From positions 1 to 6,199 of the forward strand of contig JAJYPO010000138.1 of the NCBI GenBank assembly GCA_021795275.1: a stretch of 6,199 nucleotides of DNA, read 5' to 3'. How positions within the stretch are numbered: position 1 is the stretch's first letter; every line of letters starts with the position of its first letter. The position numbers and the translations under genes were made by a program. The stretch comes from Nitrospirota bacterium (GTDB taxonomy: Bacteria > Nitrospirota_A > Leptospirillia > Leptospirillales > Leptospirillaceae). The notes below the pieces were generated by a model. It worked only from the letters and a program-made list of their open reading frames with translations, did not search any database and was not told where the DNA came from. Below, piece after piece: positions 1-6,186 of the stretch.

Positions 1-313
1 TCTCGACGCTTCGTGGTCGAAAACCCTCGATAAGCTACCATTCGATTCCAGTTTTTGGAGATCTCTCCATCGACAAACTCACCATGCGGTCCATTCGTAT
101 CTGGATCGCCCAACTCAAGGACATCACCCATAAGCAATCGCATCAACAACATTTTCGTTCATTTGAAGGGCGGACTGGGCGATGCCTTCGATGACGGGAT
201 CATCGACCGGAACCCGATGGACCGGATCAAGAACCTGCCCCTTGAGACCCGTCCTCCGGATCCCTTCACGCCCTAAGAGGTGGGTATCATTCTCCTCACT
301 GCGGAGGGACCCT

Positions 314-375
314 GTATCGTCGTTCCAGGGTTTTCTCGTGATCGGATTCGTGAAGATCCGTGTCGCATGATCACC
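314..375 (-). repeat. 62-bp inverted, circularly permuted copy of 606-669 inserted in the integrase
   Basis: Bases 314-361 are the perfect reverse complement of 606-653 (48 bp). Bases 360-375 are the perfect reverse complement of 654-669 (16 bp). The two blocks adjoin in both places but in swapped order, overlapping by 2 bp here. Deleting exactly these 62 bases joins CCCT (310-313) to TCCGG (376-380) and restores one open frame, reading TAEGP and then FRSLLQFAFWAGLRTSEL. The segment is therefore a later insertion into the integrase, not an ancestral part of it. Confidence 0.95.
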
Positions 376-605
376 TCCGGAGCCTGCTGCAGTTCGCCTT
401 CTGGGCGGGACTCCGGACAAGCGAGCTGATCGCCCTCTAATGGGGGCGTTGACTGGAAGAGGGGATCGGTGTTCGTACGGAGAGCGATTGTCCGGAATGT
501 CACGAAAGAAATGAAAACGAAGGCCGGAATGCGTGAGATGACGCTTCTTGTCCCGCCACGGGAGACGCTTGAGGCCCAGAAAGAACATTCCCTTCTTCCG
601 GGAGG

Positions 606-669
606 ACGGATCTTCACGAATCCGATCACGAGAAAACCCTGGAACGACGATACGGTGATCATGCGACAC
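606..669 (+). repeat. Donor copy of the inverted, permuted 62-bp insertion
   Basis: This segment lies in an uninterrupted stretch of integrase coding sequence, reading RIFTNPITRKPWNDDTVIMR, so it is the original and 314-375 is the derivative. The dinucleotide AC occurs at both ends (606-607 and 668-669). It forms the 2-base overlap at the internal junction of the inserted copy, as expected for microhomology joining. Confidence 0.9.
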
Positions 670-949
670 TGGCGGTCCGTTCTCCGGAAAGCCGGGGTCC
701 GAAACCCTTACCAGACACGTCACACCTATGCGAGCCTGCTTTTGTCGGCTGGCGAGAATCCGATGTGGATGGCGTCCCGGATGGGACATTCGGATTGGAG
801 GGATGATCCGGAAGCGGTACGGACGCTGGATTCCGTCCGTCGATCCTTCGGTGGGAGAAAAAACGAACCGGATCGCTCAAAAAATCGGTCCGGATGGTGA
901 CAGGAGAAAAATAGGGTTAACTAAGTTATCTTGATTCAGTAAATATCAA

Positions 950-1035
950 TGGTGCCGAAGGCGGGACTCGAACCCGCACGACCTTGCGATCACTAGACCC
1001 TGAACCTAGCGTGTCTACCATTCCACCACTTCGGC
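950..1035 (-). tRNA. tRNA-Leu (anticodon CAG)
   Basis: Read on the minus strand, the gene starts GCCGAAG and ends CTTCGGC, then discriminator A and an encoded CCA (950-952), giving a perfect 7-bp acceptor stem. The D region GTGGAATGGTAGACAC is typical of leucine tRNAs. The anticodon stem CTAGG/TCTAG (one G-U pair) closes the loop TTCAGGG, placing anticodon CAG at 1000-1002. A long variable arm, GATC-GCAA-GGTC, marks a type II tRNA. The T arm is GCGGG-TTCGAGT-CCCGC. It reads CUG codons. All helices look intact, so the gene should be functional despite the integrase relic beside its 3' end. Confidence 0.98.
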
Positions 1036-6033: not shown

Positions 6034-6120
6034 GAGCCCCCCTTTGCGGAGCGTGTCGCAGACGGGGCCTGACCCCTTTGTATCCCACCGGGAAAATCTT
6101 CCCTGCGGCAAACTCACGTC

Positions 6121-6186
6121 ATCCGGTTAACGTAATATACTTTTAGTTATCCGGTTAACATGGTAGATTTATGCTATCCGGTTAAC
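6121..6186 (+). repeat. Three direct repeats of ATCCGGTTAAC at 28 and 27 bp periods
   Basis: Perfect 11-bp copies lie at 6121-6131, 6149-6159 and 6176-6186. The first and third extend to 13 bp (plus GT). The spacers of 17 and 16 bp are AT-rich and unrelated in sequence. Each copy contains the palindrome GTTAAC. A one-base-shorter relative, ATCCGTTAACGT, lies at 5766-5777 just before tRNA-Gln. Regular spacing implies a protein-binding array, such as transposase sites at an insertion-sequence end or iterons. The array may continue past the window. Confidence 0.9.

Follow-up and report, generated by a model that had tools for sequence, protein, structure and literature searches.

The window analysed here, the whole stretch of 6,199 nucleotides from a Nitrospirota bacterium of the Leptospirillaceae (contig JAJYPO010000138.1), contains the remnant of an integrase gene, in which a 62-bp insertion was found, and next to it a tRNA-Leu gene (Table 1). 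Three open protein genes follow downstream; their products are a class II fumarase, a small ferredoxin-like protein (assigned from a weak Pfam match below the cut-off), and a P-type ATPase that is closest to proteins of Nitrospirae MAGs (61%) and of a Leptospirillum sp. MAG (56%). A near-perfect 17-bp hairpin at 2634-2669, directly behind the fumarase gene, is a likely terminator. At the right end of the window (6118-6186), three direct copies of ATCCGGTTAAC are spaced 27-28 bp apart and resemble iterons or transposon ends; these repeats were absent from the 341 loci searched. In the related genome G003, an integrase gene is kept and is followed by the start of the tRNA gene at the contig end. 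The metagenome-assembled genome G002 matches positions 950-2630 at 88% DNA identity, and gave no match to 1-960.

Table 1. Coordinates of the integrase remnant, its insert and the adjoining tRNA gene in the window
Feature	Position	Strand	Remarks
Tyrosine-recombinase (integrase) pseudogene with insert	1..900	+	TAA 274-276, TAA 438-440, indels
62-bp insertion	314..375	+	rotated reverse complement of 606-667
Insert segment 1, reverse complement of 606-653	314..361	+	48 nt, 100%
Insert segment 2, reverse complement of 654-669	360..375	+	16 nt, 100%; 2-nt overlap with segment 1
Putative loop/circle closure, GT	360..361	.	complement of AC at 606-607 and 668-669; 2-bp microhomology
Donor segment, lap of 62 nt, putatively opened at 653/654	606..669	+	single copy in window and relatives
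Target joint	313..376	.	bases 313 and 376 adjacent in empty alleles; no duplication, loss or microhomology at the target
tRNA-Leu(CAG)	950..1035	-	adjoins integrase remnant; probable attachment site

The phage-integrase catalytic domain (PF00589) was detected on 28 of 46 protein relatives of the integrase reading; the window's own piece at 469-897 gave no Pfam match. In the sense direction this piece (P0004) occurs on two contigs of at most 3,834 bp. Because these are shorter than the window, the identical piece must be carried by other contigs, and they are uninformative on the presence of the insert. Besides the two TAA codons, the lesions relative to related genes comprise about +4 near 131-138, -2 near 446, an in-frame -6 near 698 (versus L122, the corresponding locus of the related genome G021), +1 near 799, and a ragged 5′ end. 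According to the first-pass annotation, removal of the 62 bp restores the integrase frame. This was true locally, where a continuous reading was obtained, but the other stops and indels remained when the gene was compared with its relatives.

In a script check, rotating the reverse complement of 606-667 by 14 reproduced 314-375 without a mismatch (62/62); the donor starts 230 bp beyond the end of the insert. The first-pass description of two perfect inverted matches sharing the dinucleotide AC, and of a locally templated insertion of exactly 62 bp, was thereby reproduced. A plain inverted copy would give the complement of 654-669 followed by that of 606-653; in the insert this order is swapped and the mutual orientation of the two segments is kept, which is the arrangement by which circle-mediated duplication is recognized. 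At the donor opening, bases 653 and 654 are adjacent, and there is no gap, overlap, loss or doubling between the segments. The two outer joints of the insert connect the same two points crosswise and lack microhomology, the flank ending in GAGGGACCCT versus CATGATCACC in the donor context, and on the other side TCCGGAGCCT versus GTATCGTCGT. The 62 donor bases match the neighbouring 62 bases at 16-23 of 62 positions, and thus are not tandemly duplicated in the window; the donor was likewise unduplicated in 231 of 234 homologue alignments (the remaining three being remote, at 28-36%) and in the antisense readings P0002 and P0003 described below. Chance similarity was ruled out, as no exact inverted repeat longer than 20 arose in any of 1000 Markov resamples of 1-960, compared with 48 here. 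There was also no sign of a shared repeat or conserved element: the inner joint of the insert occurred in none of 21 family genomes (approximate query with the first base off, 3 mismatches allowed) and on no viral contig (exact joint). A search for plasmid relatives of 1-960 gave no match.

Absence of the insert from homologues was evident at several levels. In G003 (locus L112; 75-81% DNA identity) and G021 (L122; 81-83%), the gene reads through the insert site codon for codon, and the bases corresponding to 313 and 376 are neighbours, so that the target joint shows zero change. The viral locus L020 (71% amino acid identity) has no gap at the site at the protein level, and its DNA alignment is ragged there. 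When the homologue P0005 was compared with the 341 loci by tblastn, the site was spanned by 232 of 234 alignments, of which 222 were gapless and 10 had 1-3 extra residues; the loci overlap in part, and after removal of identical alignments the figures were 158/167 and 9/167, respectively. The donors of the relatives differ from the insert (92% identity over 314-361 in G003 and 96% over 312-361 in G021), whereas in the window donor and insert are identical, which indicates that the copy was made in this lineage.

Protein searches with the antisense reading across the region retrieved three matches, P0001 to P0003, and a further protein search returned the same three. P0001 is the window's reading with the insert; it comprises 2 member sequences (90% clusters) on 4 contigs, the longest of 10,937 bp, one of the four being taken as the window's own contig. 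P0002 and P0003 (ENA, one contig each) show the same antisense reading without the insert, and represent metagenome alleles of the same decayed gene. P0003 has the 158 residues predicted for an empty site, with 153 of 158 identical and the same junction; P0002 resembles P0003 but has a few changes and, at another place, a gap of 8 residues. That gap (24 bp) lies at about 540-563 of the window, with another change nearby, as in alleles of a dead gene that gather different indels. Taken together with L112, L122 and the gapless alignments, these alleles substantiate the earlier view of a real and recent insertion that homologues lack. The sequence evidence shows a polymorphic insert of recent origin in a single strain lineage of a Leptospirillum-like bacterium.

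At both stop positions P0002 and P0003 have leucine, as results when a sense TAA is read on the opposite strand, and the frame across the -2 lesion is shared as well. L112 and L122 have GAA there, which would read as phenylalanine in antisense; leucine would also result from CAA or NAG. The other lesions thus seem to be present in the empty alleles. It is therefore very probable that the integrase was already dead at the time of the insertion, which would not be what broke it; this conclusion is read solely from the protein letters of P0002 and P0003. The insert is probably a neutral mutational scar, with no apparent function.

The first-pass annotation had considered this class of insertion undescribed. 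This view could not be maintained, given that permuted order together with exact adjacency has been published as the mark of eccDNA-mediated duplication in human DNA (Takahashi and Innan 2020, PMC7188851). The portions of that study drawn on here describe three strong human cases of ~20-130 kb; its data have a minimum length of 500 bp, which all flipped regions exceed, and its authors expect undetected cases below that size. The present insert agrees with those cases in its permuted order (efghijabcd in their notation), in the kept mutual orientation, in exact adjacency, in a donor that is not tandemly duplicated, and in a recipient site that is empty in relatives (L112, L122, P0002 and P0003). 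It differs in being 62 bp long, bacterial, only 230 bp from its donor, and inverse in orientation. The insert thus has the pattern of circle-mediated duplication, the circle itself being putative.

Other known systems fit less completely, at least as set out in the relevant portions of the papers. The four-point model of short-range template switching (PMC7954356) shares the nearby donor, the inverted copy and the single insertion point, but it produces one contiguous inverted segment, whereas the insert consists of two swapped segments. Insertions at yeast breaks (PMC11724301) are likewise short and templated and may combine two fragments of one locus. Unlike the insert, however, such fragments are mostly mutually inverted in the complex yeast insertions, pairs of the same orientation being described as very rare; the outer joints have 0-4 bp of microhomology (0 here), and NHEJ is held responsible for the insertion. 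Small inverted triplication (PMC13334657) is also a small inverted copy arising from a replication error, but has a DUP/IN/DUP structure, and the sections of that paper drawn on here describe neither swapped order nor an exact lap. No bacterial example of this kind (62 bp, inverse, local) was found among the top-ranked matches in the open-licence literature searched. What is new here is therefore the bacterial setting, the 62-bp size and the inverse local insertion; the order pattern was already known.

The identity of the two sequences, the exact lap, the unaltered target joint and the empty alleles lead us to infer a looped or circular intermediate and its joining to the chromosome; the chances that the insert is one lap of a 62-nt loop or circle, joined inversely 230 bp away, seem to us evenly balanced. 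A 62-nt stretch of the already dead integrase would have been copied into a closed or looped form, its ends meeting at the 2-nt microhomology AC, to give either a small circle or a slipped-strand loop able to migrate to any rotation. This loop or circle would then have been opened at 653/654, and exactly one lap would have been joined into the same gene in inverse orientation, with no loss or gain at the target. The earlier suggestion that such a one-lap reading is the simpler model was upheld, in that it is the most economical account of joints (653/654 and 313/376) with zero loss, gain or overlap. Because nothing changed at the target cut (L112, L122, P0003), the event reads as one conservative exchange with the lap. 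Crosswise joints of this kind would result if the chromosome and a 62-nt lap had undergone one conservative exchange, or if a polymerase had copied one lap and halted at its own tract; a slipped loop of 62 nt, excised at any rotation, could likewise supply the lap. These are versions of one idea, namely one lap of a closed or looped intermediate. The 62/62 rotation, the adjacent donor cut, the clean target and the lack of a tandem duplication at the donor argue for it, and the insert has the same-orientation arrangement that is rare in yeast. Against it, there is one case, and neither target joint has microhomology. A double-stranded circle of 62 bp would also be badly strained, and serial template switching could have given an exact lap by coincidence.

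The joining machinery of the lineage was surveyed in 21 family genomes (G001-G005 and G007-G022; G009 is a single contig of 2,559,538 bases). Ku (PF02735) was found in none of these 21 relatives of the source, genomes of unstated completeness, with 1 of 14 controls positive (B. subtilis). Classical bacterial NHEJ is therefore unlikely, and the absence of Ku makes the capture of a free molecule with blunt ends less likely and speaks for replication-linked versions. The LigA domain PF01653 was also found in 0 of the 21 (controls positive, 11/14), and TIGR00575 gave nothing over the cut-off in these genomes, with weak matches of at most 21 bits in three; in a sample of 148 genomes of the phylum that included family members, PF01653 was present in 105. 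An ATP-dependent ligase (PF01068) was present in 19 of the 21 family genomes, in open frames of 617-765 aa. The G009 enzyme (L377:107-1969; 620 aa) has the N, middle and C domains of the archaeal/eukaryotic ligase-I type, and its best PDB match was 2hiv, which we take to be a Sulfolobus structure. This Leptospirillum-like family thus seems to be without LigA and to carry a predicted archaeal-type ligase. According to the part of a review drawn on here (PMC5052709), NAD ligases are encoded in every bacterial genome, and no paper on a LigA-less exception in this family was found among the top-ranked matches in the literature searched. Any bearing of the unusual ligase on the insert is speculation.

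The main rival of the one-lap reading is serial template switching, a serious possibility to which we nevertheless give less than an even chance. Here, a nascent strand that had reached 313 would have jumped to 653 on the opposite strand and been extended as far as 606; a slip of 62 nt via AC would have taken it back to 669, and after synthesis down to 654 it would have resumed on its original template from the next base. Neither a free molecule nor Ku is needed, the donor is close enough (230 bp) for the short-range template-switch model (PMC7954356, as far as its relevant portion goes), and a 2-nt match for the slip is present. On the other hand, three joints are required instead of two, and there is no microhomology at entry or exit. 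The exact stop would be explained if synthesis halted at its own 5′ tract at 653; without such a halt, we estimate that a stop exactly at 654 would occur about 1 time in 60. Such a coincidence is not out of reach for one case that was chosen for its appearance, and this penalty should not be over-read. The rarity of same-orientation double fragments in the yeast data drawn on above (PMC11724301) also counts against serial switching, albeit mildly given the large evolutionary distance.

The remaining explanations were considered improbable. Tandem duplication of 606-667, inverted copying of one lap across the joint, and subsequent loss of the extra donor copy would correspond to the false-positive route of circle duplication outlined in Fig. 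4A of PMC7188851, in the portion of that paper drawn on here. Every step is ordinary, with AC serving both gain and loss, but the donor duplication was absent from the window, from P0002 and P0003, and from the homologue alignments other than the three remote ones, and the exact lap would still be coincidental; we regard this route as very improbable. There is even less to recommend capture, in swapped order at a break at 313, of two small fragments cut apart at 653/654: a single cut would account for the adjacency, but 48- and 16-bp fragments, lossless blunt joining and an end-joining system would all be needed, and Ku was not found in the family genomes. An assembly or library artefact is to be credited just as little. 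The P0001 contigs could stem from re-assemblies of one sample, but the insert-bearing reading occurs on 4 contigs and in 2 member sequences, which makes a one-off assembly error unlikely, and the three neighbouring protein genes are open throughout.

A search for further cases of the one-lap pattern covered 378 loci (4,298,384 bp, the window not counted), including 115 loci of six family genomes (1,822,583 bp); the loci overlap in part, with ~3.1 Mb of the first 3.7 Mb distinct. Exact permuted local copies were scanned in inverted and direct orientation, with 10-mers in more than 2 local copies filtered as repetitive. There were 0 inverted copies, and 162 direct copies that were all repetitive. 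A looser scan of 341 loci and the window gave 77 direct matches, again all repetitive, and one short inverted match besides the window's own (L203, 13+10 nt), versus one in resampled sequence, which is chance level. Plain local inverted repeats with exact arms of at least 20, 20-2000 bp apart, numbered 9 in the 4,298,384 bp, all with arms below 40. The event is thus rare in the scanned sample, and the mechanism rests on one case.

For the cell, a single neutral scar brings no change. Still, the insert raises the tentative and rather doubtful idea that Ku-less bacteria make single-stranded loops or circles of ~60 nt from their own DNA, closed on 2-nt matches, and rejoin exactly one lap to the chromosome in one conservative step without homology. 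Circle reintegration on this small scale, linked to replication and possibly aided by the lineage's archaeal-type ligase, is part of the same joint reading, and must be held equally loosely. Among strain-to-strain insertions, a peak of exact laps would reveal a loop or circle, whereas a flat spread would point to serial template switching. If the one-lap reading is true, circle-type duplication, described at the kilobase scale in eukaryotes, would be extended to a bacterium and to ~60 nt.
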